Shown here: positions 5,221-63,792 of the stretch, one piece after another | How the letters are laid out: the number at the start of each line of letters is the position of its first letter | Position numbering within the stretch: position 1 is the stretch's first letter | NCBI GenBank assembly: GCA_964017065.1 | Contig: OZ024786.1 | Span: forward strand, 14,171,764 to 14,235,763 | Origin: Haliclona indistincta | Taxonomy: Eukaryota; Porifera; Demospongiae; Haplosclerida; Chalinidae | Length of the DNA stretch: 64,000 nucleotides | Direction: 5' to 3' | Program-made: the position numbers and the translations under genes | The notes under the pieces: model-generated | Databases searched by the model: none | What the model was told of the DNA's origin: nothing | What the model saw: the letters and a program-made list of their open reading frames with translations, nothing else

Positions 5221-6207
5221 ATGGCTACTAAACTAGTCTGTCTACTGATCAGCTCTTACCTGCTGTTGGCTGGTGACTATCATGTAGTGAGTGGGTTCAC
5301 TCCAGTCACCTACTCTTCTCAGAGCTCTACTGCAGAATGTGGTCACAGTGACCCTCTACAAGATGACCAGTTGATGGAAGCACTCAGCCAGATCCATCAG
5401 GAGCTAGGTCCTCCAGGATGCAACCCTCCTCGAAACAGATCTTGTCAGGAGATTCTCCACTGCTTCCCATCAGCTCCCTCAGGCTACCACGAGATACGTG
5501 TTCCCAATGGCTCACTAGTACAGGTCTACTGTGACATGGAGGGGACCAACTGTGGAGGACAAGGAGGCTGGATGAGAGTGGCCCATGTTAATATGTCACA
5601 GGATGGTGCCAGTTGCCCTCAAGGACTGACAGAAAAAGTCAGGTCAGTATCGACTCTCTGTGGACAGAGTGCTACTGGTTGTGAAGGAACATTGTTCTCT
5701 GCACTAGGTCTCAGCTACTCACGAGTGTGTGGCCAGCTACGAGGATACCAGTTTGGTAATCCTGATGCATTTAACCCTGGCGTCTCAATAATTAGTAATT
5801 ATGTTGATGGGGCATCCATCACATATGGTACTACACCAGTCAAACACATCTGGACATATGCTACTGGAATCTCTCTTAGTCAAAGTTGCATTTCTTGTCA
5901 ATGTCCCTGCAATACTGGTGGTAATACTGATCAAGTTCCTCCTTTTGTTGGCAGCGACTACTACTGTGAGACTGGTTTCAATTCGGCTAGTACTTTTAAT
6001 GGTGTCTTTTCCAATACTGATCCTCTGTGGGATGGGCAGCAGTGTCCTGGTGTGGAGGCTCCCTGCTGTACTCACCCCAACATGCCATGGTTCATCAAGA
6101 CACTTGGTGAGACCACCACTGAGGATATTCAGCTGAGACTGTGCAACAATGGCGGAATTTCTCAAGAAGAAACTCTACTGCAGTTGATATCATTGTATGT
6201 ACATTAG
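5221..6207 (+). CDS. Secreted fibrinogen-like/variable-loop protein, copy 1
   Basis: Single exon, 328 aa. Residues 1-25 form a signal peptide (MATKLVCLLISSYLLLAG). Residues 46-66 are the QDDQLMEALSQIHQELG helix-like linker. Residues 75-140 match the N-terminal part of fibrinogen-related domains (CQEI, SGYHEI, VYCDME, CGGQGGWMRV), with N-glycosylation sequons NRS, NGS and NMS. The classical FReD C-terminal calcium site is not seen; instead there is a family-specific Cys-rich half ending LLQLISLYVH. Loops: NPDAFNPGVSIISN (~180-193), ISLSQSCISCQCPC (~217-230), FNSASTFNGVFSNT (~253-266). It is unusual in having KVRSVSTLCG where relatives have TMSGLTLCG, and CPGVEA. The start is the first ATG after the class A leader. 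A poly(A) signal AATAAA lies at 6265. Binding role is inferred. Confidence 0.93.
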   Translation: MATKLVCLLISSYLLLAGDYHVVSGFTPVTYSSQSSTAECGHSDPLQDDQLMEALSQIHQELGPPGCNPPRNRSCQEILHCFPSAPSGYHEIRVPNGSLVQVYCDMEGTNCGGQGGWMRVAHVNMSQDGASCPQGLTEKVRSVSTLCGQSATGCEGTLFSALGLSYSRVCGQLRGYQFGNPDAFNPGVSIISNYVDGASITYGTTPVKHIWTYATGISLSQSCISCQCPCNTGGNTDQVPPFVGSDYYCETGFNSASTFNGVFSNTDPLWDGQQCPGVEAPCCTHPNMPWFIKTLGETTTEDIQLRLCNNGGISQEETLLQLISLYVH

Positions 6208-6580
6208 TGACATTAATAATTAATAACCCCATTAATAATCGAAGAATTTCTTAATTACTTTTACAATAAAATAAAAATGAACAAGAATCATAAGAGCATG
6301 ATGAGGTGTAAACAAAGCATTATTTTAACTAAGGAATTAACATTTCTTATCACAGGCTCACTGTAACACAACTAGACTAGCTAAAAACATGTAAAGACTG
6401 TTTGAAATATAATTATGCGATGGAATGTCTGCTTTTGAGTCTCCAAGTTCATGTCATGTTCATGTTTCCTAATGTTTGATTATTTTGTGGACATTTGTAC
6501 AACAAGTATCTAACAGTTAGCTACGGCTGTCATGAGATTGTCTGGCAGTCTACAGTGGTCATCAAGGTACTGAACACTCC

Positions 6581-6780
6581 GGTACTGGTATTGCTTTTGT
6601 TAATAGCTCCAACATCACCTTCAGGTACATCACTGTCACTAACTGTGGGGCTGACATGACAAGCTTTTGTTGAGAAAGCTTTTTGTGCAATGGTAGTCTT
6701 GGTCTCTTTAGAACTGGTCACACTATTGCATTAGATCATGTTTCTATACAAAATGGGACAAGCAATGGTCTACTGAAGTT
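6581..6780 (+). pseudogene. Relic of beta-helix membrane-protein gene
   Basis: The frame reads GTGIAFVNSSNITF..ITVTNCGADM, then a stop after SFC, then SFLCNGSLGLFRTGHTIALDHVSIQNGTSNGL. This lines up with residues ~104-175 of the 57532 gene (ETGIAFDRSAHITLKNFTISNCGAT, CFITGNGTAIQI, SQGLTFINT). Sequence identity is low, so it is an old paralogous scrap and not a recent copy. No start, signal peptide or membrane part is nearby. It shows that a receptor of this type once lay between array genes here too. Confidence 0.7.
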
Positions 6781-6939
6781 CAAAATGGCGGCGTTATCAT
6801 CAAATTAATGCAGCAAAACTTGTAAGAAAACGGTGAACAAACAAGGTTTGATTTGATAGTTATCACTGCTGCTAGGCAATGATATGTAGGGATGACCGCG
6901 AATTAAGATGGCTGCTACTCATGTGTGAAAAATGAATTT

Positions 6940-7121
6940 TCGCACATAATCATGTTATTGTATCTGATGTAACCAGCCAAAATACCATGAAAGGAATAGG
7001 AAAAAACACTACAACATAGTTGATCAAGATACATGTGTTGATGTTTCCATCATGTACATTCTTTGTTTGCTGCCTTAGTTACATTGTTCAACTTATCCTT
7101 GATCATAGTGGAAAGAAAGCT
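6940..7121 (+). promoter_or_regulatory. Class B upstream region and leader
   Basis: About 180 bases (ATCTGATGTAACCAGCC, CCATGAAAGGAATAGG, ATACATGTGTTGATGTTTCC, TCCTTGATCA, GTGGAAAG) recur before the copies at 31655 and 35894, always ending in AGCTATG. This is a leader type clearly different from class A, so nearly identical coding regions are driven by different upstream sequences. Role inferred from conservation. Confidence 0.5.
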
Positions 7122-8108
7122 ATGGCTACTAAACTAGTCTGTCTACTGATCAGCTCTTACCTGCTGTTGGCTGGTGACTATCATGTAGTGAGTGGGTTCA
7201 CTCCAGTCACCTACTCTTCTCAGAGCTCTACTGCAGAATGTGGTCACAGTGACCCTCTACAAGATGACCAGTTGATGGCAGTGATTAGTCAGGTTCGTCA
7301 ACGGCTAGGTCCTCCAGGATGCAACCCTCCACGAAACAGATCTTGTCAGGAGATTCTCTACTGCTTCCCATCAGCTCCCTCAGGCTACCACGAGATACGT
7401 GTTCCCAATGGCTCACTAGTACAGGTCTACTGTGACATGGAGGGGACCAACTGTGGAGGACAAGGAGGCTGGATGAGAGTGGCCCATGTTAATATGTCAC
7501 AGGATGGTGCCAGTTGCCCTCAAGGACTGACAGAGAAGAACATGTCAGGACTGACTCTCTGTGGACAGAATGCTACTGGTTGTCAAAGAACATCGTTCTT
7601 TGCACTAGGTCTCAGCTACTCACGAGTGTGTGGTCAGTTACGAGGATATCAGTTTGGTACAACTAATGCATTTGCTCTTTACAACAATAAAAATTTTCAA
7701 CTAAATCAAACCTACGTTGATGGAGCATCCATTACATACGACACTAGATCACCTAAACACATCTGGACATATGCTACTGCACAAAAGCTTGGTTTGGGCA
7801 ATAGTACATGTCCCTGCAATACTGGCAGTACTGCTCAGGTTCCTCCCTATGTTGGTAGTGACTACTACTGTGAGACTGGTAATGATAATAATATTGCCAG
7901 TTATGATTTCTTCCTCAATGATCCTCTGTGGGATGGGCAGCAGTGTGATGGTGTGGAGGCAAACTGCTGTACTCATCCCAACATGCCATGGTTCATCAAG
8001 ACACTCGGTGAGAACACCACTGAGGATATTCAGCTGAGACTGTGTATTAATGGACTACCAACTAACGAGGAGACTCTACTGCAGTTGATTGAAATATATG
8101 TGTACTAA
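7122..8108 (+). CDS. Secreted fibrinogen-like/variable-loop protein, copy 2
   Basis: 328 aa, single exon, class B leader; the ATG at 7122 was chosen because it matches the family start and signal peptide, and the frame further upstream opens only with a TTG. The linker is the MAVISQVRQRLGPPGC type rather than MEALSKIHQELG. Loops: TTNAFALYNNKNFQLNQT, AQKLGLGNSTCPC (loop 2 lacks the extra C-x2-C pair present in copies 1, 4, 6 and 8-11), NDNNIASYDFFLNDP. Odd points: QRTSFFALG replaces EGTLFSALG, VEANCC replaces VEAPCC, and GENTTED creates an additional sequon. Ends INGLPTNEETLLQLIEIYVY. Its 3' flank (TAACACAAACATGACTATC) is the type also seen at 22288 and 62803. Confidence 0.93.
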   Translation: MATKLVCLLISSYLLLAGDYHVVSGFTPVTYSSQSSTAECGHSDPLQDDQLMAVISQVRQRLGPPGCNPPRNRSCQEILYCFPSAPSGYHEIRVPNGSLVQVYCDMEGTNCGGQGGWMRVAHVNMSQDGASCPQGLTEKNMSGLTLCGQNATGCQRTSFFALGLSYSRVCGQLRGYQFGTTNAFALYNNKNFQLNQTYVDGASITYDTRSPKHIWTYATAQKLGLGNSTCPCNTGSTAQVPPYVGSDYYCETGNDNNIASYDFFLNDPLWDGQQCDGVEANCCTHPNMPWFIKTLGENTTEDIQLRLCINGLPTNEETLLQLIEIYVY

Positions 8109-10147: not shown

Positions 10148-11128
10148 ATGGCTGCTAGACTAGTCTGTCTACTGATCAGCTCTTACCTGCTGTTGGCTGG
10201 TGACTATCATGTAGTGAGTGGGTTCACTCCAGTCACCTACTCTTCTCAGAGCTCTATTGAATGCGGTCTACAAGATGACCAGTTGATGGAAGCACTCAAC
10301 AAGATCCATCAGGAGCTAGGTGCTCCAGGATGCAACCCTCCTCAAAACAGATCTTGTCAGGAGATTCTTTACTGCTTCCCATCAGCTCCCTCAGGCTACC
10401 ACGGGATACATATTCCCAATGGCTCACTAGTACAGGTCTACTGTGACATGGAGGGGACCAACTGTGGAGGACAAGGAGGCTGGATGAGAGTGGCCCATGT
10501 TAATATGTCACAGGATGGTGCCAGTTGCCCTCAAGTACTGACACAGAAGAACATTTCAGGACTGACTCTCTGTGGACAGAATGCTACTGGTTGTGAAGGA
10601 ACATTGTTCTCTGCACTAGGTCTCAGCTACTCACGAGTGTGTGGCCAGCTACGAGGATACCAGAATGGTGCACCTGATGCATTTATGCCTTACAACGACA
10701 ATAACAATCTTGAGGTTAATCAAGGCTATGTTGATGGTGCATCCATCACATATGGTACTACAGTAACTAAACATATTTGGACTTATGCTACTGGAATCTC
10801 TCTTAAACGTGATCCTTATGCCTCTTTGTGCCCTTGTAATACTAATAGTATGACTCAGGTTCCTCCCTATGTTGGTAGTGACTACTACTGTGAGACTGGT
10901 TATAATAATTTTACATTTCTTCATGAATTCCATCCCAATGATCCTCTGTGGGATGGGCAGCAGTGTGTTGGTGAGGAGGCTCCCTGCTGTGATCACCCCA
11001 ACATGCCATGGTTCATCAAGACACTCGGTGAGACCACCACTGAGGATATTCAGCTGAGACTGTGCATTGATCAACCAACTACTGATGAGGAGACTCTACT
11101 GCAGTTGATTGAACTATATGTATCCTGA
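10148..11128 (+). CDS. Secreted fibrinogen-like/variable-loop protein, copy 3
   Basis: 326 aa, first residues MAARLVCLL. Two to three residues shorter than most because SSTAECGHSDPLQDD is replaced by SSIECGLQDD. Differences in the otherwise constant half: HGIHIPNG for HEIRVPNG, CPQVL for CPQGL, and KNISG (an added sequon). Loops: NGAPDAFMPYNDNNNLEVNQ, ISLKRDPYASLCPC (one Cys of the pair lost), YNNFTFLHEFHPNDP. Also VGEEAPCCDHP. Tail IDQPTTDEETLLQLIELYVS. Loops 1-3 are nearly the same as in copy 5 (16347), so these two are closest relatives in the C-terminal half despite different leaders. AATAAA at 11261. Confidence 0.93.
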   Translation: MAARLVCLLISSYLLLAGDYHVVSGFTPVTYSSQSSIECGLQDDQLMEALNKIHQELGAPGCNPPQNRSCQEILYCFPSAPSGYHGIHIPNGSLVQVYCDMEGTNCGGQGGWMRVAHVNMSQDGASCPQVLTQKNISGLTLCGQNATGCEGTLFSALGLSYSRVCGQLRGYQNGAPDAFMPYNDNNNLEVNQGYVDGASITYGTTVTKHIWTYATGISLKRDPYASLCPCNTNSMTQVPPYVGSDYYCETGYNNFTFLHEFHPNDPLWDGQQCVGEEAPCCDHPNMPWFIKTLGETTTEDIQLRLCIDQPTTDEETLLQLIELYVS

Positions 11129-12591
11129 CACATTACTTCAGTCATGTATGATTGATTCTATGTTTGCATAATAGTATTCAGTAAAGTTAACATCTGGTAT
11201 CGACTTGTTAGCGACAGTGGTATGTAGGAATGATCGAGATAGCGGCTACAATGGGCTGTAAATAAACTATTGCATGTATCTTTGCAATATTGAATACTTA
11301 GTGGAGTTTAACAATCTTATCATGCGCTCAAGCACTTGCAAGAAGTCCATTAATGTTACTAACATTGCCTGTTCATTGTTGTAAATCAATATGGCGACTC
11401 TCACCGATTGACACATTCTAGATCTTCACAGTCTTGACATTTCTCGAAACTTGAGGCATTTAGTATTCAGTGGTGATCTCACTGATGATCCACGGCATGT
11501 TGGGGTGAGTACAGCAGGGAGATTCACCACTGCCGTCCATCCCACAGAGGATCATAATCATAAATAGCCATGTCACAGTACAAGGTCACTTGAGGTCAGA
11601 CAGTTGTCATTTGTAGTAGAACAAGTAAACACTGAACTAAACATAGAAATGCAGACACCTGTTTTTGATTGCAATACCTGTACATGACTGAACCTTAAGG
11701 ATGGAATTTATGTTTAAAATCAATAAATTCACAGCAGTAGTCACTACCAACATAGGGAGGAACCTGAGCTATCTATAAGGACACTAACAGGAAGGACAAA
11801 GATCATGTTGAAGAGAGATTCCAGTAGAGTAAGTCCAAATATGTTTAGATACTGTAGTACCATATGTGATAGATGCTCCATCAACATAGCCTTGATTAAC
11901 CTGAAGATTGAGAGTGGAGGCTCCCTGCTGTACTCACCCCAACATACCGTGGTTCATCAAGACAATCAGTGAGACGATATTCAGCTGAGACTGTGTAACA
12001 ATAATAGCTGAGCAGAGATAGAGTCTAGTTGCAGCAGAAGATACTCGAAAGAAGGTCCGCTTCAAAAAGTTATTGGCGGTTACAAAATATAATAAATCTA
12101 CAAATTTTTCAATAATAGCACGTATTCATTTTCTTAAATTTGCGATACAGCTTTGAGTACTATTTTTTTAGCAATTATAATGTCATCACTAAATTTTAAA
12201 ATTAGTACCTGCTAATAATAGTAACACTAAGGGTTGGAGTATAGAGCTATGTGATATTTTAGGAATAATGAGCTCTTAGCACAAAGACAAAAATTATTAT
12301 AGAAGTGGAGAGGAAGGTCTGCAGTTGAAAGCAAAAGTTGAATGATGTGTGCAATTGAACTGATGAAGAAACAATGTCCCTCTCACTGGGGATTACCATT
12401 GCAGCTTATAGTAGTCAACTAACTTATCATTCCTTGTACATAGAGTATTCCTCTGTAGAAGGTCTCAGTACATGTCGCATACCTTCTATAGAACTTTATG
12501 GATGTAATATCTGCCTTTGAGTCTCAAACTTCATGTCATGTTATGTTTCCTCATGTTATAACACATTGATTTCTTGTATAAAGCAAGTGTA
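11129..12591. repeat. Duplicated spacer block, copy I
   Basis: About 1.45 kb that recurs at 14833-16277 and 17334-18790, and in part at 26555-26970. It starts at the gene stop (GACACATTACTTCAGTCATG), carries the inverted gene scraps annotated separately, and runs into class A upstream sequence. Order and spacing are kept in all three blocks, so gene and spacer were duplicated together as a ~3-kb unit. Confidence 0.85.
11471..12006. pseudogene. Scrambled array-gene fragments (two minus, one plus)
   Basis: 11471-11555 on the minus strand matches the DPLWDG..CCTHPNMPW region. 11728-11911 on the minus strand matches from NLQVNQGYVDG through ISLKRD to VPPYVGSDYYC. 11914-12006 on the plus strand matches VEAPCCTHPNMPWFIKT to RLCNN. 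All are broken by indels and stops. The minus pieces resemble the loops of the 10148/16347 type most. The inverted arrangement is kept in the two other spacer blocks. Confidence 0.85.
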
Positions 12592-12595
12592 TTAA

Positions 12596-13836: not shown

Positions 13837-14832
13837 ATGGCTACTAAACTAGTCTGTCTACTGATCAGCTCTTACCTGCTGTTGGCTGGTGACTATCATG
13901 TAGTGAGTGGGTTCACTCCAGTCACCTACTCTTCTCAGAGTTCTACTGCAGAATGTGGTCACAGTGACCCTCTACAAGATGACCAGTTGATGGAAGCACT
14001 CAGCAAGATCCATCAGGAGCTACGTCCTCCAGGATGCAACCCTCCACGAAACAGATCTTGTCAGGAGATTCTCTACTGCTTCCCATCAGCTCCCTCAGGC
14101 TACCACGAGATACGTGTTCCCAATGGCTCACTAGTACAGGTCTACTGTGACATGGAGGGGACCAACTGTGGAGGAAAAGGAGGCTGGATGAGAGTGGCTC
14201 ATGTTAATATGTCACAGGATGGTGCCAGTTGCCCTCAAGGACTGACACAGAAGACCATGTCAGGACTGACTCTCTGTGGACAGAGTGCTACTGGTTGTGA
14301 AGGAACATTGTTCTCTGCACTAGGTCTCAGCTACTCACGAGTGTGTGGTCAGCTACGAGGATACCAGTTTGGTAGAACTGATGCATTTAACTTTTACAAC
14401 AACAATAATAATCTTCAGGTTAATCAAGACTATGTTGATGGAGCATCCATCACATATGGTACTACAGAATCTAAACACATCTGGACATATGCTACAGGAC
14501 AGTCTCTTAGTAATGCTTGCAGTGCTTGTCTATGTCCCTGCAATACTGGTAGTACTGCTGTAGTTCCTCCCTATGTTGGCAGTGACTACTACTGTGAGAC
14601 TGGTAGGAATGCTGCTAAAGGGTCTACTGAATTCTTTCCCAATGATCCTCTGTGGGATGGGCAGCAGTGTGTTGGTGTGGAGGCTCCCTGCTGTACTCAT
14701 CCCAACATGCCATGGTTCATCAAGACACTCGGTGAGACCACCACTGAGGATATTCAGCTGAGACTGTGTATTAATCAACCAACTACTGATGAGGAAACCC
14801 TACTGCCGTTGATTGAACTGTATGTATACTGA
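13837..14832 (+). CDS. Secreted fibrinogen-like/variable-loop protein, copy 4
   Basis: 331 aa, class A leader. The constant half is standard except RPPGC for GPPGC and GGKGGW for GGQGGW. Loops: RTDAFNFYNNNNNLQVNQ (Asn run coded mainly by AAC/AAT), QSLSNACSACLCPC (full C-x2-C pair), RNAAKGSTEFFPNDP. Tail INQPTTDEETLLPLIELYVY; the Pro in LLPLI replaces the usual Gln. Loops are nearly identical to copy 8 (33537) and close to copy 11 (56000), but the tail and 3' flank are of the 10148/16347 type: a mosaic. AATAAA at 14962. Confidence 0.93.
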   Translation: MATKLVCLLISSYLLLAGDYHVVSGFTPVTYSSQSSTAECGHSDPLQDDQLMEALSKIHQELRPPGCNPPRNRSCQEILYCFPSAPSGYHEIRVPNGSLVQVYCDMEGTNCGGKGGWMRVAHVNMSQDGASCPQGLTQKTMSGLTLCGQSATGCEGTLFSALGLSYSRVCGQLRGYQFGRTDAFNFYNNNNNLQVNQDYVDGASITYGTTESKHIWTYATGQSLSNACSACLCPCNTGSTAVVPPYVGSDYYCETGRNAAKGSTEFFPNDPLWDGQQCVGVEAPCCTHPNMPWFIKTLGETTTEDIQLRLCINQPTTDEETLLPLIELYVY

Positions 14833-16277
14833 CACATTACTTCAGTCATGTATGATTGATTCCATGTTTGTATAGTATTCAGTAAAGTTAACATCTGGTA
14901 TCAACTTGTTAGCGACAGTGGTATGTAGGAATGATCGAGATAGCAGCTACAATGGGCTGTAAATAAACTATTGCATGTATCTTTGCTATATTGAATACCT
15001 AGTGGGGTTTAACCATCTTATCATATGCTCAAGCACTTGCAAGAAGTCCATTAGTGTCACTGACATTGCCTGCTCATTGTTGTAAATCAATATGGCGACT
15101 CTCACCGATCGACACAGTCCAGATCTTCACAGTCTTGACATATATCGAAACTTGAGACATTTAGTATTCAGTGGTGATCTCACTGATGATCCAGGCATGT
15201 CGGGGTGAGTACAGCAGGGAGATTCACCACTGCTGTCCATCCCACAGAGCATCATAATCATAAATAGCCATGTCACAGTACAAGGTCACTTGAGGTCAGA
15301 CAGTTGTCATTTGTAGTAGAACAAGTAAACACTAAACTAAACATAGAAATGCAGACACCTGTTTTTGATTGCAATACCTGTACATGACTGAACCTTAAGG
15401 ATGGAATTTATGTTGAAATTCAATAAATTCACAGTAGTAGTCACTACCAACATAGGGAGGAACCTGAGCTATCTATAAGGACACAAACAGGAAGGACAAA
15501 GATCATGTTGAAGAGAGATTCCAGTAGAGTAAGTCCAAATATGTTTAGATACTGTAGTACCATATGTGATAGATGCTCCATCAACATAGCCTTGATTAAC
15601 CTGAAGATTGAGAGAGGAGGCTCCCTGCTGTACTCACCCTAAACATGCCACGGTTCATTAAGACACTCGGTGAGACGATATCAACTTAGACAGTGTAACA
15701 ATAATAGCTGAGAGGAGATAGAGTCTAGCTCCAGCAGAAGATACTCGAAAGAAGGACAGCTTCAAAAAGTTATTGGCGATAACAAACTTTATCGAATCTA
15801 CAAAATTTTTCAATAATAGCACGTATTCATTTTCTTAAATTTGCGATACAGCTTTGAGTACTATTTTTTAGCAATTATAATGTCATCACTAAAATTTAAA
15901 ATTAGTACCTGCTAATAATAGTAACACTAAGGATTGGAGTATAGAGCTAGTTGATATTATTTTTAGGAATAATGAACTCTTAGCACAAAGACAAAAATTA
16001 TTATAGAAGTGGAGAGGAAGGTCTGCAGTTGAAAGCAAAAGTTGAATGATGTGTGCAATTGAACTGATGAAGAAACAATGTCTCTCTCACTGGGTAATAC
16101 CGTTGTAGCTTATAGTAGTCAAGTAACTTATCATTCCTTGTGCATGGAGTATTTCTCAGTAGAAGGTCTCAGTACATGTCGCATACCTTCTATGGAACTA
16201 TATGGATGTAATATCTGCCTTTGAGTCTCACACTTCATGTCATGTCATGTTTCCTCATGTTATAATACATAAATTTA
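14833..16277. repeat. Duplicated spacer block, copy II
   Basis: Aligns with 11129-12591 over its whole length, but lacks the 600-bp TTAA element that follows copy I, so that insertion came after the duplication or into one unit only. The distal part (from ~15960) is class A upstream sequence of the 16347 gene. Confidence 0.85.
15171..15708. pseudogene. Scrambled array-gene fragments, block II
   Basis: Minus 15171-15256 (DPLWDG to NMPW), minus 15428-15611 (NLQVNQ to GSDYYC), plus 15616-15708 (VEAPCC to RLC). Same order, orientation and breakpoints as at 11471-12006, with a few extra substitutions. No usable frame. Confidence 0.85.
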
Positions 16278-16346: not shown

Positions 16347-17333
16347 ATGGCTACTAAACTAGTCTGTCTACTGATCAGCTCTTACCTGCTGTTGGCTGGT
16401 CACTATCATGTAGTGAGTGGGTTCACTCCAGTCACCTACTCTTCTCAGAGCTCTACTGAAGAATGTGGTCTTGAAGATAACAAGTTGATGGAAGCGCTCA
16501 GTAAGATCCATCAGGAGCTAGGTCCTCCAGGATGCAACCCTCCTCGAAACAGATCTTGTCAGGAGATTCTCTACTGCTTCCCATCAGCTCCCTCAGGCTA
16601 CCACGAGATACGTGTTCCCAATGGCTCACTAGTACAGGTCTACTGTGACATGGAGGGGACCAACTGTGGAGGACAAGGAGGCTGGATGAGAGTGGCCCAT
16701 GTTAATATGTCACAGGATGGTGCCAGTTGCCCTCAAGGACTGATACAGAAGACCAGGTCAGGACTGACTCTCTGTGGACAAAGTGTCAATGGTTGTCAAG
16801 GAACGTTGTTCTCTGCACTAGGTCTCAGCTACTCACGAGTGTGTGGCCAGCTACGAGGATACCAGAACGGTGCACCAGATGCATTTATGCCTTACAACGA
16901 TAATAACAATCTTCAGGTTAATCAAGGCTATGTTGATGGAGCATCTATCACATATGGTACTATAGTATCTAAACATATTTGGACTTACGCTACTGGAATC
17001 TCTCTTAAACGTGATCCTTGTCCTGCCTGTTTGTGTCCTTGTAATACTAATAGTATGGCTCAGGTTCCTCCCTATGTTGGTAGTGACTACTACTGTGAGA
17101 CTGGTTATAATAATTTTATATTTCTTCATGAATTCTTTCCCAATGATCCTCTGTGGGATGGGCAGCAGTGTGTTGGTGTGGAGGCTCCCTGCTGTACTCA
17201 CCCCAACATGCCATGGTTCATCAAGACACTCAGTGAGACCACCACTGAGGATATTCAGCTGAGACTGTGCATTGATCAACCAACTACTGATGAGGAGACT
17301 CTACTGCAGTTGATTGAACTATATGTATACTGA
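16347..17333 (+). CDS. Secreted fibrinogen-like/variable-loop protein, copy 5
   Basis: 328 aa, class A leader with a slightly longer purine box (GAGAGACAGAGGAGACT). The ATG at 16347 is the family start. Linker unusual: STEECGLEDNKLMEALSKIH. Others: GHYHVV, GLIQKTRSG, SVNGCQGT, TLSETTTED. Loops: NGAPDAFMPYNDNNNLQVNQ, ISLKRDPCPACLCPC (both Cys present, unlike copy 3), YNNFIFLHEFFPNDP. Tail IDQPTTDEETLLQLIELYVY. The 5' half is a class A type while loops are those of copy 3. The poly(A) word seen after copies 3 and 4 is altered here to AACAAA. Confidence 0.93.
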   Translation: MATKLVCLLISSYLLLAGHYHVVSGFTPVTYSSQSSTEECGLEDNKLMEALSKIHQELGPPGCNPPRNRSCQEILYCFPSAPSGYHEIRVPNGSLVQVYCDMEGTNCGGQGGWMRVAHVNMSQDGASCPQGLIQKTRSGLTLCGQSVNGCQGTLFSALGLSYSRVCGQLRGYQNGAPDAFMPYNDNNNLQVNQGYVDGASITYGTIVSKHIWTYATGISLKRDPCPACLCPCNTNSMAQVPPYVGSDYYCETGYNNFIFLHEFFPNDPLWDGQQCVGVEAPCCTHPNMPWFIKTLSETTTEDIQLRLCIDQPTTDEETLLQLIELYVY

Positions 17334-18790
17334 CACGTTACTTCAGTCATGTATGATTGATTCCCTGTTTGCATAATAGTATTCAGTAAAGTTAACATCT
17401 GGTATCAACTTGTTAGCGACAGTGGTATGTAGGAATGATCGAGATAGCAGCTGCAATGGGCTGTAAACAAACTATTGCATGTATCTTTGCTATATTGAAT
17501 ACCTAGTGGGGTTTAACCATCTTATCATGCGCTCAAGCACTTCCAAGAAGTCCATTAGTGTCACTGACATTGCCTGCTCATTGTTGTAAATCAATATGGC
17601 GACTCTCACCGATCGACACATTCTAGATCTTCACAGTCTTGACATTTATCGAAAGTTGAGACATTTAGTATTCAGTGGTGATCTCACTGATGATCCAGGC
17701 ATGTTGGGGTGAGTACAGCAGGGAGATTCACCACTGCTGTCCATCCCACAGAGCATCATAATCATAAATAGCCATGTCACAGTACAAGGAAACTTGAGGT
17801 CAGACAGTTGTCATTTGTAGAAGAACAAGTAAGCACTGAACTAAACATAAAAATGCAGACACCTGTTTTTGATTGCAATACCTGTACATGACTGAACCTA
17901 AAATTTAATGATGGAATTTATGTTTAAAATCAATAAATAAATTCACAGTAGTAGTCACTACCAACATAGGTAGGAGCCTGAACTATCTATTAGTATTACA
18001 AGGACACGTCAAAGATCATGTTGAAGAGAGATTCCAGTAGCGTAAGTCCAAATATGTTTAGATACTGTAGTACCATATGTGATAGATGCTCCATCAACAT
18101 AACCTTGATTAACCTGAAGATTGAGAGTGGAGGCTCCCTGCTGTACTCACCCCAACATGCCATGGTTCATCAAGACACTCAGTGAGACGATATTCAGCTG
18201 AGACTGTGTAACAATAATAGCTGAGAGGAGATAGAGTCTAGCTGCAGCAGAAGATACTCGAAAGAAGGACAGCTTCAAAAAGTTATTGGCGGTTACAAAC
18301 TTTAACAAATCTACAAAATTTTTCAATAATAGCACGTATTCATTTTCTTAAATTTGCGATACAGCTTTGAGTACTATTTTTTTAGCAATTATAATGTCAT
18401 CACTAAATTTTAAAATTAGTACCTGCTAATAATAGTAACACTAAGGGTTGGAGTATAGAGCTATGTGATATTTTAGGAATAATGAGCTCTTAGCACAAAG
18501 ACAAAAATTATTATAGAAGTGGAGAGGAAGGTCTGCAGTTGAAAGCAAAAGTTGAATGATATGTGCACTTGAACTGATGAAGAAACAATGTCCCTCTCAC
18601 TGGGTATTACCAATGCAGCTTATAGTAGTCAAGTAACTTATCATTCCTTGTGCATAGAGTATTTCTCAGTAGAAGGTCTCAGTACATGACTCATACCTTC
18701 TATGGAACTATATGGATGTAATATCTGCCTTTGAGTCTCACACTTCATGTCATGTCATGTTTCCTCAAGTTTTAACACATACATTTCTTC
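17334..18790. repeat. Duplicated spacer block, copy III
   Basis: Third copy of the 1.45-kb spacer. It ends at ~18790, where it does not lead into a gene; instead a further partial class A block (18805-19384) follows, so one gene appears to have been lost between the two upstream copies. Confidence 0.8.
17675..18217. pseudogene. Scrambled array-gene fragments, block III
   Basis: Minus 17675-17758, minus 17941-18124, plus 18126-18217, matching the same three gene portions as in blocks I and II. The plus piece keeps CCCCAACATGCCATGGTTC intact. No usable frame. Confidence 0.85.
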
Positions 18791-18804
18791 AATAAATGAA
18801 GTGT

Positions 18805-25658: not shown

Positions 25659-25732
25659 ATGGCTACTAAACTAGTCTGTCCATTGATCAGCTCTTACCTG
25701 CTGTTGGCTGGTGACTATCATGTAGTGAGTGG
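25659..25732 (+). pseudogene. 5' stub of array gene (25 codons)
   Basis: ATGGCTACTAAACTAGTC start, signal peptide intact apart from one substitution (CTGTCCATTGATC: Leu to Pro), ending after VVSG where homology stops and GAATAAAAAAAC follows. It lacks any known leader class upstream. Only the signal peptide is left. Confidence 0.85.
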
Positions 25733-52031: not shown

Positions 52032-53027
52032 ATGGCCACGAAACTAGTCTGTCTACTGATCAGCTCTTACCTGCTGTTGGCTGGTGACTATCATGTAGTG
52101 AGTGGGTTCACTCCAGTCACCTACCCTTCTCAGAGCTCTACTGCAGAATGTGGTCACAGTGACCTTCTACAAGATGACCAGTTGATGGCAGTAATCAATC
52201 AGGTCCGTCAACGGCTTGGTCCTCCAGGATGCAACCCTCCTCGAAACAGATCTTGTCAGGAGATTCTCCACTGCTTCCCATCAGCTCCCTCAGGCTACCA
52301 CGAGATACGTGTTCCCAATGGCTCACTAGTACAGGTCTACTGTGACATGGAGGGGACCAACTGTGGAGGACAAGGAGGCTGGATGAGAGTGGCCCATGTT
52401 AATATGTCACAGGATGGTGCCAGTTGCCCTCAAGGACTGATACTAAAAGTCTGGTTTGAATTAACTCTCTGTGGAAAGAATGTTGCTGGTTGTCAAGGAA
52501 CATTTTTCTCTGCACTAGGTCTCAGCTACTCACGAGTGTGTGGTCAGCTACGAGGATACCAGTTTGGTGGTCCTGATGCATTCTATACTTATATGCGTTT
52601 TCCTTCTAATGGTCTAAGTACACCTTATGTTGATGGAGCATCTATCACGTATGATACTGCTGCGCCAAAACACATTTGGACATATGCTACTGGACTGGCT
52701 CTTGAGGATTCTTGCAGTACTTGTCTATGTCCCTGCAATAATGGCAGCGATATTCAGCTTCCGCCTTTTGTTGGTAGTGACTACTACTGTGAGACTGGTA
52801 ACAATATGAACGGTAGATCAAATGGTGTCTTTATCAATGATACTCTGTGGGATGGGCAGCAGTGTGATGGTGTGGAGGCTCCCTGCTGTACTTACCCCAA
52901 CATGCCATGGTTCAACAAGACACTCGGTGAGACCACCACTGAGGATATTCAGCTGAGACTATGCAGCAATGGTGGAGTTTCTGATGAAGAAACTCTACTG
53001 CAGTTGATATCATTGTATGTATACTAA
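52032..53027 (+). CDS. Secreted fibrinogen-like/variable-loop protein, copy 10
   Basis: 331 aa. Start codon context and codons 3-4 differ at silent sites (GCCACGAAA), unlike all others. TYPSQSS and SDLLQDD are unique. Most divergent mid-region: GLILKVWFELTLCGKNVAGC instead of GLTQKTMSGLTLCGQ. Loops: GPDAFYTYMRFPSNGLSTP, LALEDSCSTCLCPC, NNMNGRSNGVFINDTLWDG. CTYPNMPWFNKT replaces CTHPNMPWFIKT and adds a possible sequon. Tail SNGGVSDEETLLQLISLYVY. Sister to copy 9 in loops and 3' flank but with the MAVINQVRQRLG linker and its own leader. AATAAA at 53203. Confidence 0.93.
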   Translation: MATKLVCLLISSYLLLAGDYHVVSGFTPVTYPSQSSTAECGHSDLLQDDQLMAVINQVRQRLGPPGCNPPRNRSCQEILHCFPSAPSGYHEIRVPNGSLVQVYCDMEGTNCGGQGGWMRVAHVNMSQDGASCPQGLILKVWFELTLCGKNVAGCQGTFFSALGLSYSRVCGQLRGYQFGGPDAFYTYMRFPSNGLSTPYVDGASITYDTAAPKHIWTYATGLALEDSCSTCLCPCNNGSDIQLPPFVGSDYYCETGNNMNGRSNGVFINDTLWDGQQCDGVEAPCCTYPNMPWFNKTLGETTTEDIQLRLCSNGGVSDEETLLQLISLYVY

Positions 53028-54794: not shown

Positions 54795-54796
54795 TA

Positions 54797-55999: not shown

Positions 56000-56995
56000 A
56001 TGGCTACTAAACTAGTCTGTCTACTGATCAGCTCTTACCTGCTGTTGGCTGGTGACTATCATGTAGTGAGTGGGTTCACTCCAGTCACCTACTCTTCTCA
56101 GAGCTCTACTGCAGAATGTGGTCACAGTGACCCTCTACAAGATGACCAGTTGATGGAAGCACTCAGCAAGATTCAACAGGAGCTAGGTCCTCCAGGATGC
56201 AACCCTCCTCAAAACAGATCTTGTCAGGAGATTCTCTACTGCTTCCCATCAGCTCCCTCAGGCTACCACGAGATACGTGTTCCCAATGGTTCACTAGTAC
56301 AGGTCTACTGTGACATGGAGGGGACCAACTGTGGAGGACAAGGAGGCTGGATGAGAGTGGCCCATGTTAATATGTCACAGGATGGTGCCAGTTGCCCTCA
56401 AGGACTGACACAGAAGTCCATGTCAGGACTGAGTCTCTGCGGACAGAGTGCTACTGGTTGTGAAGGAACATTGTTCTCTGCACTAGGTCTCAGCTACTCA
56501 CGCGTATGTGGCCAGCTACGAGGATACCAGTTTGGTAGAACTGATGCATTTAACTTTTACAACAACAATAATAATCTTCAGGTTAATCAAACCTATGTTG
56601 ATGGAGCATCCATCACATATGATACTGCATCACCCAAACACATTTGGACATATGCTTCAGGACAGTCTCTTAGTAATGCTTGCATGAAATGTCTATGTCC
56701 CTGCAATACTGGTAATACTGCTGTTGTTCCTCCCTATGTTGGCAATGACTACTACTGTGAGACTGGTAACAATGCTGCTAGTGGGTCTATTGAATTCTTT
56801 CCTAATGATCCTCTGTGGGATGGGCAGCAGTGTGTTGGTGTGGAGGCTCCCTGCTGTACTCATCCCAACATGCCGTGGTTCATCAAGACACTCGGTGAGA
56901 CCACCACTGAGGATATTCAGCTGAGACTGTGCATCAATGCTATACTTTCCAGTGAAGAAACTCTACTGCAGTTGATATCATTGTATGTATATTAG
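56000..56995 (+). CDS. Secreted fibrinogen-like/variable-loop protein, copy 11
   Basis: 331 aa, class E leader ending GATAGAGAGCT. Constant-half changes: KIQQELGPPGCNPPQNRSC, KSMSGLSL. Loops: RTDAFNFYNNNNNLQVNQT with SITYDTASP, QSLSNACMKCLCPC, NNAASGSIEFFPNDP. YVGNDYYC replaces YVGSDYYC, as only in copy 12. Tail INAILSSEETLLQLISLYVY, 3' flank TAGTGACAAAGACCATAA, AATAAA at 57051. It lies ~540 bases upstream of the receptor gene on the same strand, the arrangement from which the chimeric 46798 locus can be derived by one deletion. Confidence 0.93.
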   Translation: MATKLVCLLISSYLLLAGDYHVVSGFTPVTYSSQSSTAECGHSDPLQDDQLMEALSKIQQELGPPGCNPPQNRSCQEILYCFPSAPSGYHEIRVPNGSLVQVYCDMEGTNCGGQGGWMRVAHVNMSQDGASCPQGLTQKSMSGLSLCGQSATGCEGTLFSALGLSYSRVCGQLRGYQFGRTDAFNFYNNNNNLQVNQTYVDGASITYDTASPKHIWTYASGQSLSNACMKCLCPCNTGNTAVVPPYVGNDYYCETGNNAASGSIEFFPNDPLWDGQQCVGVEAPCCTHPNMPWFIKTLGETTTEDIQLRLCINAILSSEETLLQLISLYVY

Positions 56996-57531: not shown

Positions 57532-60500
57532 ATGTGGTTGCTTTTACTGTGTCTTGTGTGCTGGAGCTTTCAGGATGCCGCTGCCAGACAGATCATCATC
57601 TCAGAGAAAGGCAGTGACACTCCATCTTGTCTTGAGGATCAAAACCCGCTGGTCTCCTGTCAGTCTCTGGTCAAGGTCTCTGAGTATGTGACTAGTCACA
57701 AGCTCAACAATGTAACCATCATGATCAATGACACTAACTACACTCTTCAAGGAGTAGCCCTTTTTAGTAGAGTGGAGAACGTGACTATAACTGGGAATGA
57801 CTACTTATCGACTGAAATCAGCTGCAACAATTCAAACACCTCTGAAACTGGAATAGCCTTTGATCGCTCTGCACATATTACTCTCAAAAACTTCACTATC
57901 AGTAACTGTGGAGCGACCATTGTTACATGTTACACAAAACGAAATAATAAATGTTTTATTACTGGTAATGGTACAGCTATCCAAATTACTGACTGCAATC
58001 AAGTCAACGTATTAAGCATTGTGGTGTACAGGAGCATTAGTCAAGGTCTTACGTTCATCAACACCGGATCAACAGTACGAGTGATCGACTCTCGTTTCAT
58101 CAACAACACCGTCTCTCAATCCCATTGGTTGGGTAATGGTGCTTTGCAAGTGATCTTTTACGGAGCAAAAAGTCTAAACGCAAACACTGACTATACTATT
58201 GCGAATAGCAAGTTTATAAACAATGGCAATATCACAACAACAATAGCAGAGGCAATAACGAAACAAAACAAAGTTGATTCTTGGTACTGTGAAAGAGGGG
58301 GCGGAATTCGAATACTTCTTCTCGACCATTATTGCAGAAACTGCAGCGTTACACTTGAAAATAACAGTCTAGTAGGCAACCATGCAGTCTACGGTGGTGG
58401 AGCATTCATTTATGTGAGTGGAAAAACATCAAATAGCACAATTAAACTCTTCAATAATTCTTTCATTGCAAACTCTGTGTCTGCTGATGGAGGAGGTCTT
58501 GAAGTCAGTTACGCTACACACGAGAATCAGCATCCGATCAACAATACCTGCATTGTTCGAAGTTCTTCTTTCGTCAGCAATACTGCTACAAACGGCGGAG
58601 GCTTGTCAACTTACTCTTCTTCTTTAGAGGATTTTAGACACAGGTACAACACTCTGAAATGCATAAAATGTCATTTTGAGAGAAATTTTGCACAATGTGG
58701 TGCAGCAGTCAGTGCTAGTAGAGGAGAATTCTCAAAAGATAAATCAAAGACGATAACTCGTGTCTATTGTTATGAGTGTGTATTCAAGAACAATGTTGTG
58801 ATATCCAAGTCTAATGCAGTTGGAAATAATAACGGCGCATTCTTCATTTCTGAAGTGCAAGTCAATTTTGCAGGCACAACTAATTTCACAGGAAACAATG
58901 GCACAGCTCTGTATCTTGATTCAACCGGTTATTTAAAAGCAATTGCAAAGTTTGATTCAAAAAGTACTGTTATTTTTAATCTCAACTCTGGCTATAAAGG
59001 AGGCGCGATAGTCTTGTCCGGACATTCAGCTCTCTATGTCCATACCAACTACGGCCATAGTTCCTTTTATTTTTTGAATAACTTAGCTACCTTCTTTAGC
59101 GGAGCCATCAGTGCTTTAACCAGTATTCTGGAACCGAACATAAATGACGAGACAGGAAAATCATGTTTTTTATATTTGATGGATAATAAGAACGTTTCCT
59201 TCTTTTTTCGCAACAACACAGCCAGTATTGGATACAATGACTTTTATATAACATCTTTAAAGCGTTGTAATCACTCCTGCCTTCATACAATCCCTAATAT
59301 ATCTCACTCTATTGAAAACAAATGCTTTGGAATCTTTACAATCACTAGCTCTGGTAAAAACATTGCTACTTCGCCCAAAAATTATACAATTCAATTCCAA
59401 GGTACAGTTTTGCCCGGTATAGAAACTCCTTTGAAAATAACGCAATACGATGAGTTTGGTGATGATGTCAGTAAACTGTTCCCCTTCACTGCTAGAGTAC
59501 AGAGTTCGGGACAAAATGCAAGAGTTGCCTATTATCACAACAACTCGATCATGATTATAGGCTTCCCAGGAGATGAGGGAGAACTACAGCTGGAAAGTTC
59601 AAAATATACTCTCGCCACAAGATTCAATGTATCCTTTTGTGGTCCAGGGTTTCAATTTCACAATGAATCACTGAAATGTACTTGTTCCGAAAACTATAAC
59701 TCGATACAGTGTAAAAATGAATCGCCAGTGATAACCAGCAATTATTGGGCGGGATACATAAACGACACAACACCAGATAGTCTGCTTACTGGACTCTGCA
59801 TAACGAAATTATGCAACCCGAATAATTGCGATCATAGTCAGTCCTGTAGCCTACCTTCAATGGCTGATGAACAGGCGCTAGAGAAAAGAATTTGTGGGGA
59901 CAGTAGACATGGACGATTGTGCGGGAGATGTGATGACAACATGTCAGTGTATTATCATTCAGCAAGCTACACTTGTGGAAACAACACCAGCTGTAGTTAT
60001 GGTACACCGATCTACATAGTCTCTGAGCTACTCCCGGTGACCATCATCTTCCTCGTCATCTTGTTCTTCAATATTAGGATCACTTCAGGAGCTGTCAACA
60101 GCTTCGTCTTCTATATTCAGATACTATCACGACTAAATTTGACTGCTTTTAAAACAATACATATTGAAGATCTCTTCACACGGTATGCAGTGGACGTCTT
60201 TCAAATAGTAATAGGAATTTTCTCTTTTGAAATTCAGAGTGGAGGATTCTGCATCTTTCAAACTGACACGATTATGAATCTACTGATGATCAAATATGCC
60301 ACGCTGGCATACGCTTTCTTTCTAGTTCTAGGAACAATCTTGTTCATGAGAATACACTCGTGTTACAGCTGTGTGAAGCTGTGCAGACGATGTGGTAGGA
60401 AGAACATCAGAGGGTCTATAGTAGATGGACTGTCAGCATTCCTAGTACTGTGCTACTTCCAATGTGCTGCCATCACGTCATCCATACTAACTCCTTCATA

Positions 60501-61251
60501 TATCTATAGTATATACCGTGAATGGTACACAACTGTTCCTTTGTTTGATGGTGAGCTGGATTATCTGAAGGGAACCCATCTGTGGTATTCTCTACCTGCC
60601 TTTCTTTGTATTATCTTCATCCTGATTCCTCCACCAACTATCCTCATTCTGGAACCCATACTCACTAAGCTGTTCAGCATGAACTGCTTCACAAGGACAC
60701 CACCAAAATGGTACTACGACAAACTACGGCTAAAGCTGATGCCATTTCTTGACTCCTTCCAGGCTTGCTTCAAAGATAGACACCGATACTTTGCTGGACT
60801 CTACTTTCTTTATCGCCTGTTGTTCATCACAATAGCCAGCATTATTGTTCAAGATCCTCAATATTACTACGGTTTGGTAATTGCATTGTTTATGCTCATA
60901 ATCCCACTACACGCATTCATTCAGCCGTATAAGAAGAAATGGCATGAGCTATCCGAGATGTCACTTTTCTTCATCATCGTATCCCTACTAATAATCACTC
61001 TTCATAACTTTGCTTTTTATCGATCAAACGGAACGCCTTTAATCATTGTACAGTTAATACTGATCTCTCTTTCCATTGGATACATGGTAGTCTACATAAT
61101 CATTAAGATATACCAGAGATTGTGTGCACTAAAGACTAACAAGGAATTAACATCAGTCTGTCATGAGCGCGAGTTCATTGACGCTAGTGACAGTCTACCT
61201 TACCGTCTGCTCAATGACAACAACGAAAGAGAAAGCTACAGGACATTTTGA
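57532..61251 (+). CDS. Large beta-helix, multi-pass membrane protein
   Basis: 1239 aa, single exon. Residues 1-18 are a signal peptide (MWLLLLCLVCWSFQDAAA). Residues ~25-480 show parallel beta-helix/chlamydial-Pmp-like repeats (VYGGGAFIYV, SADGGGLEV, ATNGGGLSTY, NSGYKGGAIVLSG, with F.NN and many N-glycosylation sequons). Residues ~690-825 are Cys-rich (CGPGFQFH..CTCSENY, CGDSRHGRLCGRCDD). From ~827 there are 9-10 hydrophobic segments (IYIVSELLPVTIIFLVILFF; YAFFLVLGTILFM; YSLPAFLCIIFILIPPP; LYFLYRLLFITIASIIV; others), then a short polar cytoplasmic tail ending ERESYRTF. Segment number and lack of DRY/NPxxY argue against a GPCR. Likely a cell-surface adhesion or sensing protein; function unknown. 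Its placement among secreted array genes is notable. Confidence 0.9.
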   Translation: MWLLLLCLVCWSFQDAAARQIIISEKGSDTPSCLEDQNPLVSCQSLVKVSEYVTSHKLNNVTIMINDTNYTLQGVALFSRVENVTITGNDYLSTEISCNNSNTSETGIAFDRSAHITLKNFTISNCGATIVTCYTKRNNKCFITGNGTAIQITDCNQVNVLSIVVYRSISQGLTFINTGSTVRVIDSRFINNTVSQSHWLGNGALQVIFYGAKSLNANTDYTIANSKFINNGNITTTIAEAITKQNKVDSWYCERGGGIRILLLDHYCRNCSVTLENNSLVGNHAVYGGGAFIYVSGKTSNSTIKLFNNSFIANSVSADGGGLEVSYATHENQHPINNTCIVRSSSFVSNTATNGGGLSTYSSSLEDFRHRYNTLKCIKCHFERNFAQCGAAVSASRGEFSKDKSKTITRVYCYECVFKNNVVISKSNAVGNNNGAFFISEVQVNFAGTTNFTGNNGTALYLDSTGYLKAIAKFDSKSTVIFNLNSGYKGGAIVLSGHSALYVHTNYGHSSFYFLNNLATFFSGAISALTSILEPNINDETGKSCFLYLMDNKNVSFFFRNNTASIGYNDFYITSLKRCNHSCLHTIPNISHSIENKCFGIFTITSSGKNIATSPKNYTIQFQGTVLPGIETPLKITQYDEFGDDVSKLFPFTARVQSSGQNARVAYYHNNSIMIIGFPGDEGELQLESSKYTLATRFNVSFCGPGFQFHNESLKCTCSENYNSIQCKNESPVITSNYWAGYINDTTPDSLLTGLCITKLCNPNNCDHSQSCSLPSMADEQALEKRICGDSRHGRLCGRCDDNMSVYYHSASYTCGNNTSCSYGTPIYIVSELLPVTIIFLVILFFNIRITSGAVNSFVFYIQILSRLNLTAFKTIHIEDLFTRYAVDVFQIVIGIFSFEIQSGGFCIFQTDTIMNLLMIKYATLAYAFFLVLGTILFMRIHSCYSCVKLCRRCGRKNIRGSIVDGLSAFLVLCYFQCAAITSSILTPSYIYSIYREWYTTVPLFDGELDYLKGTHLWYSLPAFLCIIFILIPPPTILILEPILTKLFSMNCFTRTPPKWYYDKLRLKLMPFLDSFQACFKDRHRYFAGLYFLYRLLFITIASIIVQDPQYYYGLVIALFMLIIPLHAFIQPYKKKWHELSEMSLFFIIVSLLIITLHNFAFYRSNGTPLIIVQLILISLSIGYMVVYIIIKIYQRLCALKTNKELTSVCHEREFIDASDSLPYRLLNDNNERESYRTF

Positions 61252-62002: not shown

Positions 62003-62594
62003 CCCTTTAATTACTAAATTATCTTGCTGAAATTTTAACCTCGTAAATGCTGACCACTTCTCTCGTGAATATCTCGTGTGTCTTTTGTGCTACTGGTCTC
62101 AAATTTGCGTCCTTTTACGCCAGTGAGTAGCCGCAATTGTCCACACTCAAGTCAGTCGATATGCCCCTCCCACTTCGAAAGTGAAGCCGATAAAGTGCAA
62201 CGGCCTCGTCAAATTTTGCTCAAAGTTAATACTTTGGGGCTGGATACTGAAAAGTACACACAAATAGCAGTGGTTTTGGTGAGTGCAAAATGTAGCCCAG
62301 ATCATAGAGAATGCACAAAAATGTGTTTCCGAGCACCCTGAAGCCATAAAATGTCCAAAATTTCTTGGCTGCCGTTTTGTTTTTTCTAAAATGTTGTGAA
62401 ATTTGCACTGAAGCCATAGAAATGCCGAAGCCAATACGTTTAGCGCAGGGGGGCGCGCCGAAAACCGGTCAATTTTTTGCGGTTATTTGTATTCTTCAAT
62501 TTAGCTTAATTTCGGAATATTTTAACACTTTTTAATAAAGTTATGGTGTCTGAAGTATGTGTGTCGCCAAAAGGCGACAATAGGGGTTAAAGGG
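62003..62594. mobile_element. 592-bp TTAA-type element, copy II
   Basis: CCCTTTAATTACTAAATTAT at the left, AGGGGTTAAAGGG at the right, both bordered by TTAA (61999-62002, 62595-62598). Ends match those of 12596-13195 in reverse orientation, including the GTCGCC TTTT GGCGAC hairpin. Two empty sites exist in this window: CATGCACACTTAAGGCAGTG at ~24260-24280 and CATGCTCACTTAAGGCAGTG at ~25818. Small internal frames (87-95 codons) are unrecognised. Confidence 0.92.
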
Positions 62595-62598
62595 TTAA

Positions 62599-62802
62599 GG
62601 CAGTGACAAAATCTTTCCTCAACAAATGCAAACAAGTTGAAAACAAGTGATAGACAGTTTCCTCTTTCAACATTGAAACAAACAAGACCACACAATCACA
62701 AAATATCTCAGTTCCTTATGATAATATTCTCAAAATCAATATTATTACATCACAGTATCTTAATTCTTAACATCAGAATATCACAGTTGGATAGAGAGAG
62801 CT
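62599..62802 (+). promoter_or_regulatory. Upstream region and leader of copy 12
   Basis: GGCAGTGACAAAATCTTTCC, AGTGATAGACAGTTTCCTC, then ATATCACAGTTGGATAGAGAGAGCT before the ATG; the last part is class D-like, while the distal part is shared with 24270-24400 and 25825-25960. Regulatory role inferred. Confidence 0.45.
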
Positions 62803-63792
62803 ATGGCTACTAAACTAGTCTGTCTACTGATCAGCTCTTACCTGCTGTTGGCTGGTGACTATTATGTAGTGAGTGGGTTCACTCCAGTCACCTACTCTTC
62901 TCAGAGCTCTACTGCAGAATGTGGTCAGAGCGACCCTCTACAAGATGACCAGTTGATGGAAGCACTCAGCAAGATCCATCAGGAGCTAGGTCCTCCAGGA
63001 TGTCACCCTCCTCAAAACAGATCTTGTAAGGAAATTCTCCACTGCTTCCCATCAGCTCCCTCAGGCTACCATGAGATACGTGTTCCCAATGGCTCACTAG
63101 TACAGGTCTACTGTGACATGGAGGGGACCAACTGTGGAGCACAAGGAGGCTGGATGAGAGTGGCCAATGTTAATATGTTACAGGATGGTGCCAGTTGCCC
63201 TCAAGGACTGACACAGAAGACCAGGTCAGGACTGACTCTCTGTGGACAAAGTGCCAATGGTTGTCAAGGAACATTGTTCTCTGCACTAGGTCTCAGCTAC
63301 TCACGAGTGTGTGGCCAGCTACGAGGATACCAGTTCGGTACAACTGATGGATTCGCACCTTACTTCGAGAATAACAATGTACAACTTAATCAAGGTTACG
63401 TTGATGGAGTGTCCATCACATATGATACTGCATCACCCAAACACATCTGGACATATGCTGTTGGGTATACTCTTGCTCTAGACGCTAGTTCTCGTCCATG
63501 CAATTCAGGCAATGCTGCTTATGTTCCTCCGTATGTTGGCAATGACTACTACTGTGAGACTGGTAACAATGCTGTTAGTCTCTTTAGGGGATTTCTTCCT
63601 GGTGATCCACTGTGGGATGGGCAGCAGTGTGTTGGTGTGGAGGCTCCCTGCTGTACTCACCCCAACATGCCGTGGTTCATCAAGACACTCGGCGAGACCA
63701 CCACTAAGGAAATTCAGCTGAGACTGTGCATTGATGAACTAACTATAAGTGAGGAGACTCTACTGCAGTTGATTGAACTGTATGTGTACTAA
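62803..63792 (+). CDS. Secreted fibrinogen-like/variable-loop protein, copy 12
   Basis: 329 aa. Most altered constant half: DYYVV, CGQSDP, CHPPQNRSCKEIL, NCGAQGGW (Gly to Ala), VANVNMLQDG (loses the NMS sequon). Loops: TTDGFAPYFENNNVQLNQG with VDGVSITYDTASP, YTLALDASSRPCNSGN (CPC reduced to RPC, so two or more Cys fewer), NNAVSLFRGFLPGDPLWDG. TTTKEIQ replaces TTTEDIQ. Tail IDELTISEETLLQLIELYVY. Sub-group with copy 7 in loops and 3' flank. Probably functional, but relaxed constraint on the framework is possible. Confidence 0.92.
   Translation: MATKLVCLLISSYLLLAGDYYVVSGFTPVTYSSQSSTAECGQSDPLQDDQLMEALSKIHQELGPPGCHPPQNRSCKEILHCFPSAPSGYHEIRVPNGSLVQVYCDMEGTNCGAQGGWMRVANVNMLQDGASCPQGLTQKTRSGLTLCGQSANGCQGTLFSALGLSYSRVCGQLRGYQFGTTDGFAPYFENNNVQLNQGYVDGVSITYDTASPKHIWTYAVGYTLALDASSRPCNSGNAAYVPPYVGNDYYCETGNNAVSLFRGFLPGDPLWDGQQCVGVEAPCCTHPNMPWFIKTLGETTTKEIQLRLCIDELTISEETLLQLIELYVY

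Follow-up and report, generated by a model that had tools for sequence, protein, structure and literature searches.

A tandem array of predicted secreted proteins with four hypervariable loops in the sponge Haliclona indistincta, a candidate recognition repertoire

A stretch of 64,000 nucleotides of the sponge Haliclona indistincta (contig OZ024786.1, here called C4, positions 14171764 to 14235763; assembly GCA_964017065.1, 144 Mb in 46 contigs), referred to below as the window, carries a tandem array of genes for proteins with a fibrinogen-like N-terminal part. Twelve intact single-exon coding sequences (CDSs), all open and all on the plus strand, were confirmed, as proposed in an initial annotation made from the sequence alone. 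They are located at 5221 to 6207 (c1, 328 amino acids), 7122 to 8108 (c2, 328), 10148 to 11128 (c3, 326), 13837 to 14832 (c4, 331), 16347 to 17333 (c5, 328), 19385 to 20371 (c6, 328), 22288 to 23277 (c7, 329), 33537 to 34526 (c8, 329), 44603 to 45583 (c9, 326), 52032 to 53027 (c10, 331), 56000 to 56995 (c11, 331), and 62803 to 63792 (c12, 329), giving proteins of 326 to 331 amino acids; in-frame ATG codons lie upstream of the shared start in c2 (at 7041) and c7 (at 22204). The common signal peptide, linker, and N-terminal fibrinogen-like stretch and the fixed anchor motifs named in that annotation are present as described, and the CDSs are near-identical in residues 1 to 177 (numbering is that of c8, which was also used for the AlphaFold models). 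The copies differ by 6 to 20% in protein and have unrelated flanks, and uncollapsed haplotypes were rejected as their source for this reason.

The proteins consist of a signal-peptide-like N terminus, a predicted helix (residues 45 to 62), a fibrinogen-like motif (residues 74 to 120), and a beta-sandwich (about residues 116 to 329), the fold being taken from a confident AlphaFold model of c8. The motif reaches 34.8 bits (cutoff, 30) with NF040941, the fibrinogen-like YCDxxxxGGGW domain, and two more members also score above the cutoff. In the three window copies scanned, neither Pfam Fibrinogen_C (PF00147; full profile, ~220 residues) nor any immunoglobulin (Ig) family was found at E ≤ 1, and among 139 relatives 8 reached Fibrinogen_C, weakly, at E ≤ 0.1 (lowest E, 0.0047). 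The description "fibrinogen-like" is thus valid for the short N-terminal motif but not in the sense of a canonical fibrinogen-related domain (FReD), and assignment to the canonical FReD proteins or fibrinogen-related proteins (FREPs) was rejected, since the scanned copies miss Fibrinogen_C and the 66 matches to it in this genome lie elsewhere. Separate canonical Fibrinogen_C clusters are found at C8:9.04-9.09 Mb, C5:7.27-7.30 Mb, and C6:0.93-1.00 Mb. The PDB relatives identified by profile are lectins; residues 64 to 131 match human intelectin-1 (E, 2.2e-8), a likeness to vertebrate intelectins (X-type lectins). Fifteen cysteines are retained in at least 99% of the 139 relatives.

The array continues past both ends of the window, with relatives along about 14.13 to 14.27 Mb of C4, and further clusters are present on other contigs. 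When one copy was searched against the same genome, 125 matches were obtained, of which 12 are interrupted by in-frame stops; a distant member yielded 113, of which 31 were at new places by our own count. Contigs C1, C2, C4, C5, C6, and C9 together carry at least 156 places of the family, a lower bound with only part of the candidates scored, and about 100 genomic copies remain open as read from the match list. In a public protein set, two queries retrieved 1498 and 2041 relatives at E ≤ 0.001; none was named among the matches listed (the best 120 per query), and in the open-licence literature no earlier account of the family was found for a sponge or for any other named animal.

Thirty-one of the 45 positions that are most variable among the 139 relatives fall in four loops, which together make up 56 of the 329 residues. 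With coordinates derived from the residue numbers of c8, these are L1 (residues 178 to 199; 34068 to 34133), L2 (residues 221 to 233; 34197 to 34235), L3 (residues 256 to 269; 34302 to 34343), and L4 (residues 312 to 318; 34470 to 34490), all on the plus strand. Three loops and a variable tail before EETLLQLI had been noticed in the window; the same loops vary in the 139 relatives, which makes this a family-wide trait, and the tail corresponds to L4. In the AlphaFold model, strand state is assigned to 4 of the 39 variable positions within residues 66 to 329 and to 100 of the other 225 positions. A cluster of the family on C6, in which 10 of 12 loci passed the open reading frame (ORF) filter (L060 and L062 failed), varies at the same loops. 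A CxxC pair is seen by eye in L2 of 8 of the 12 window copies, and cysteine is found at these two positions in just 5 to 6% of the 139 relatives; the pair may form a loop disulfide particular to this cluster.

By counting in the 12 window copies, the proportions of silent (pS) and replacement (pN) differences are 0.439 and 0.362 in the loops and 0.132 and 0.055 outside them, and silent divergence is 3- to 6-fold greater in the loops. Silent values are low in the signal-peptide part (residues 1 to 39; pS, 0.044) and in residues 270 to 311 (0.088), whereas the anchors between the loops are also raised (0.287 in residues 200 to 220 and 0.362 in residues 234 to 255). Fast loop evolution on a constrained scaffold is too simple a description: the loops are raised in silent divergence too, and the fixed scaffold is therefore largely a product of homogenization, with constraint not its sole cause. 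A codon model (MG94 on a FastTree tree) gave similar ratios of replacement to silent change (dN/dS) in three partitions (0.87, 0.82, and 0.84) but tree lengths of 0.75 (residues 1 to 177), 4.70 (residues 178 to 269), and 1.90 (third partition), so the front half is young and the loop region old. For residues 1 to 177, the estimates of dN/dS disagree (0.87 with the codon model and 0.67 by counting).

The flanks were compared for 27 genes (12 from the window and 15 others on C4), using 300-bp flanks and single-linkage grouping. Dropped from the C4 members were L015 and L033 (stops) and L034, L037, and L052 (no ORF by the filter); tests on 28 sequences were run without L050, L053, and L054 and the flank tests without those and L051. 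The genes fall into 12 upstream and 13 downstream classes, which are independent of each other (adjusted Rand index, 0.044; permutation p, 0.28). Between many copies, homology is confined to the CDS and ~10 bp before it: in pairs with unlike upstream flanks, ungapped identity stays at chance level as far as position -10 (0.29 at -20 to -10) and is 0.48 at -10 to 0 and 0.91 to 0.94 from the ATG onward, and in pairs with unlike downstream flanks it is 0.34 in the first 10 bases past the stop and about 0.26 to 0.30 thereafter. Retroposition was disfavored as the cause of this CDS-bounded homology, because the copies have no transcript tail in common and similarity is lost at the stop codon and, on the 5' side, 10 bp ahead of the ATG; target-site duplications were not searched for.

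Inside the CDS, sequence similarity follows different flanks in different parts. Pairs of the same 3' class are closer in residues 178 to 269 (ratio, 0.60) and 312 to 329 (0.40), in both cases with 0 of 1000 permutations as extreme, but not in residues 1 to 177 (0.95; p, 0.19). Pairs of the same upstream class are closer in residues 1 to 39 (0.60; p, 0.002) and 1 to 177 (0.85; p, 0.011), an effect that fades downstream to a faint tie to the loops (0.92; p, 0.046). Identical tracts occur between genes that are unlike in both flanks; over 292 such pairs, their median length is 119 bp and the longest measures 241 bp. In the C6 cluster, silent divergence is 0.29 in columns 181 to 200 and 0.23 in columns 241 to 260, against 0 to 0.11 in columns 1 to 180; columns 261 to 280 have none, and the step at the flanks is softer than on C4. 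The C9 genes (n = 4) give a weak contrast only.

On balance, we lean toward the view, which we consider somewhat more probable than not, that these genes form a germline repertoire of lectin-like proteins that are small, secreted, rich in disulfides, and probably oligomeric, and that exchange between copies keeps the framework uniform, with loop modules surviving and switching promoters. Exchange, most likely gene conversion or unequal crossover, would keep the framework and the signal peptide alike; we place it inside the CDS because flank types reassort, loops follow the 3' flank, and genes with unlike flanks share tracts. The loops would persist as old, distinct modules in which change is tolerated or favored, and exchange across the shared front half could place them under different promoters. 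They would form the putative binding surface, and the array would serve as a set of innate recognizers of microbial, symbiont, or prey glycans, self markers being less likely. Judging from family size and lectin kinship, we consider microbe or symbiont recognition more likely than allorecognition. Secretion, the lectin-related start, the disulfides, the cluster expansion, and the loop diversity are compatible with such a repertoire. The diversified surface on a fixed scaffold that the initial annotation had pictured is retained in that the proteins are predicted to be secreted and the four loops are mostly non-strand in the model, but fixity of the scaffold is to be ascribed largely to homogenization. 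A wider proposal, which we offer tentatively and regard as unlikely in its full extent, is that an early-branching animal has a multichromosome repertoire in which the DNA-identical framework acts as an exchange platform, loop and 3' modules are moved under different promoters, and binding specificity is reshuffled independently of the site of expression, in the germline and possibly also in somatic cells, with no introns, splicing, or dedicated recombination signals involved.

Several results weigh against the exchange-based repertoire. The pairwise homoplasy index (PHI) detected no significant decay of incompatibility with distance, a flat profile that reflects either exchange saturated by its frequency or homoplasy. 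The silent-site run test was weak (8, 40, and 24 of 200), the 8 of 200 for residues 1 to 177 being the exception among otherwise nonsignificant recombination tests; the 0 of 200 for residues 178 to 329 is uninformative, as loops and anchors are unequal in diversity. The transition-weighted dN/dS of the loops is about 1 (0.94; 95% interval, 0.70 to 1.23; 351 pairs) and 1.14 (0.87 to 1.50) among the 26 pairs of the same 3' class, compared to 0.35 to 0.39 in the anchors of the same region. The replacement excess expected in the loops is real in absolute terms, but silent change is raised as well, and an interval that includes 1 is also what would be seen if ordinary concerted evolution, with no recognition role, kept the conserved DNA alike by conversion while four solvent-exposed loops of a generic beta-sandwich drifted under relaxed constraint. 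The per-site dN/dS check suggested earlier, performed by fixed effects likelihood (FEL) on 268 variable codons of 28 sequences, gave 16 positive and 62 negative sites at p < 0.1 and 12 positive sites at p < 0.05; no site survives Bonferroni correction (smallest positive p, 0.0025), and 45 sites, taken over both directions together, pass a Benjamini-Hochberg q of < 0.2. The small number of positive sites is a point in favor of drift. However, 7 of the 12 positive sites at p < 0.05 fall in the loops, compared to 61 of the 268 tested (Fisher p, 0.007), loop variation extends across the 139 relatives and the 1498 to 2041 database members while the 15 cysteines are kept, and about 100 open copies are not expected of relaxed genes. 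We consider relaxed drift unlikely, though it deserves serious attention.

If the framework DNA itself were constrained, as an RNA or DNA element or through codon use, its similarity would need no exchange, and the mostly nonsignificant recombination tests would be accounted for; 4-fold divergence between C4 and C9 is indeed lower in residues 67 to 140 (0.22) than in residues 40 to 66 or 141 to 177 (0.53 to 0.56). Constraint at the DNA level is nevertheless improbable, because framework 4-fold sites overall diverge by 0.33 to 0.39 between clusters, compared to 0.048 within C4, and constraint alone cannot reassort 5' and 3' flank types. Hypermutation directed at the loop region, acting on silent sites too, would explain why residues 178 to 269 show an excess of both silent and replacement divergence, with the longer tree there and a dN/dS similar to that of residues 1 to 177. 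The flanks outside the CDS have diverged like random sequence, so that it is the framework and not the loops that is anomalous, and loop divergence tracks the 3' flank class; we find hypermutation very hard to believe. A matrix or collagen-processing function, by kinship to procollagen C-propeptides, is suggested by the top Foldseek rows, which are such propeptides (E, 1.7e-5, but root mean square deviation about 10), and by COLFI (PF01410), which matches 109 of the 139 relatives at E ≤ 0.1, some relatives bearing a precomputed PF01410 call. However, COLFI scores in three window copies (14.9, 17.5, and 15.2 bits) are below the cutoff of 26.2, and these are short single-exon proteins without a collagen repeat. 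Large clusters with diversified loops are unusual among matrix proteins, and this function, too, seems to us decidedly improbable.

Most of what is known about diversified families of recognition proteins comes from snails, sea urchins, insects, and chordates. As far as descriptions of architecture go, the closest one described is that of the placozoan "intelectins," which are likewise secreted and clustered, with a short N-terminal FReD and a C-terminal part of their own. The sections on Trichoplax sp. H2 in PMC6321704 describe these as small secreted proteins with an N-terminal FReD of up to 70 amino acids and an inferred defense role, their C-terminal part being conserved within the group but not shared with vertebrate intelectins; they are expressed in secretory epithelial cells and are ascribed a role in defense (PMC6321704, PMC11452194). 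They number up to 31 genes in five clusters of 2 to 9 (PMC6321704), compared to the at least 156 places here, and neither loop hypervariability nor framework homogenization is described in the sections on them in those two papers. Snail FREPs and ficolins resemble the array proteins in their fibrinogen-like start and as large, diversified secreted families, and PMC7588048 reports gene conversion for FREP3 variants. However, FREPs are defined there by immunoglobulin superfamily (IgSF) domain(s) plus a fibrinogen domain, and the array proteins, judged from the three copies scanned, have neither an IgSF domain nor a full Fibrinogen_C. Sea urchin Sp185/333 genes are likewise similar secreted immune genes in tandem clusters, and gene conversion has been proposed to diversify and correct them, but the protein is unrelated, and the part of the source dealing with them gives 15 genes in three clusters with almost no pseudogenes (PMC5103432), in contrast to the many fragments found here. 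In sponges, expression of canonical fibrinogen-domain genes is described as shifting after microbial cues (PMC6208332).

What is new here is, above all, that a homogenized, CDS-bounded framework contrasts with old loop modules reassorted among promoters. If the preferred interpretation is correct, a simple animal has a large inherited set of recognizers (at least 156 places, with fixed anchors and four hypervariable loops), and the array offers a very clean setting in which to follow how gene conversion generates and preserves diversity, since the limits of homology at the start and stop codons let exchange be traced directly from the flanks.

The window also contains fragments of the family. 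At least 11 broken plus-strand copies had been claimed, and 12 were counted by tblastn and 14 by blastn, two of them, a 3' end (474 to 640) and an internal piece from the N-terminal fibrinogen-like part (4577 to 4768), lying to the left of the range considered before. Four minus-strand pieces (11466 to 11921, 15167 to 15621, 17672 to 18134, and 26868 to 26936) are added here. The first three belong to a 1.46-kb 3' module common to c3, c4, and c5, which contains an inverted, scrambled loop-region piece; with a short plus-strand piece, it spans 11466 to 12026 behind c3, and the same piece recurs at 15167 to 15676 behind c4 and at 17672 to 18218 behind c5. The fourth is an inverted short 3' piece. 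The other plus-strand fragments are a 3' half with loops, nearest c5 (26108 to 26551), and broken 5' ends: one with the signal peptide only (25659 to 25745), one with residues 1 to 105 (37619 to 37936), and those at 30238 to 30351, 31655 to 32003 (also frameshifted), 33179 to 33289, 35894 to 36127, and 46798 to 47004. Upstream flanks of intact copies recur on several fragments: that at 30238 has the flank of c9, and those at 31655 and 35894 have the flank of c2. The fragments at 33179 and 37619 have a common upstream flank.

The fragment at 46798 is fused directly to a truncated copy of a neighboring beta-helix-like gene. This copy (47004 to 49501) is 97% identical to a 1239-amino-acid ORF at 57532 to 61251, and its breakpoint adjoins the fragment. 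The ORF, in which no Pfam family was matched, has by eye an extracellular repeat part and several hydrophobic stretches. To the left of the window (L049, L048, and L047; C4:14131000-14171763), long stretches are 99.7 to 100% identical, and three partial family copies are spaced exactly 12306 bp apart. These near-identical repeats represent either a recent segmental triplication or an assembly artifact, and the 12.3-kb units could be duplicate contigs. Finally, a minisatellite with a 49-bp unit (41 copies, 96% matches) at 27462 to 29480 opens a repetitive ORF of 174 amino acids.

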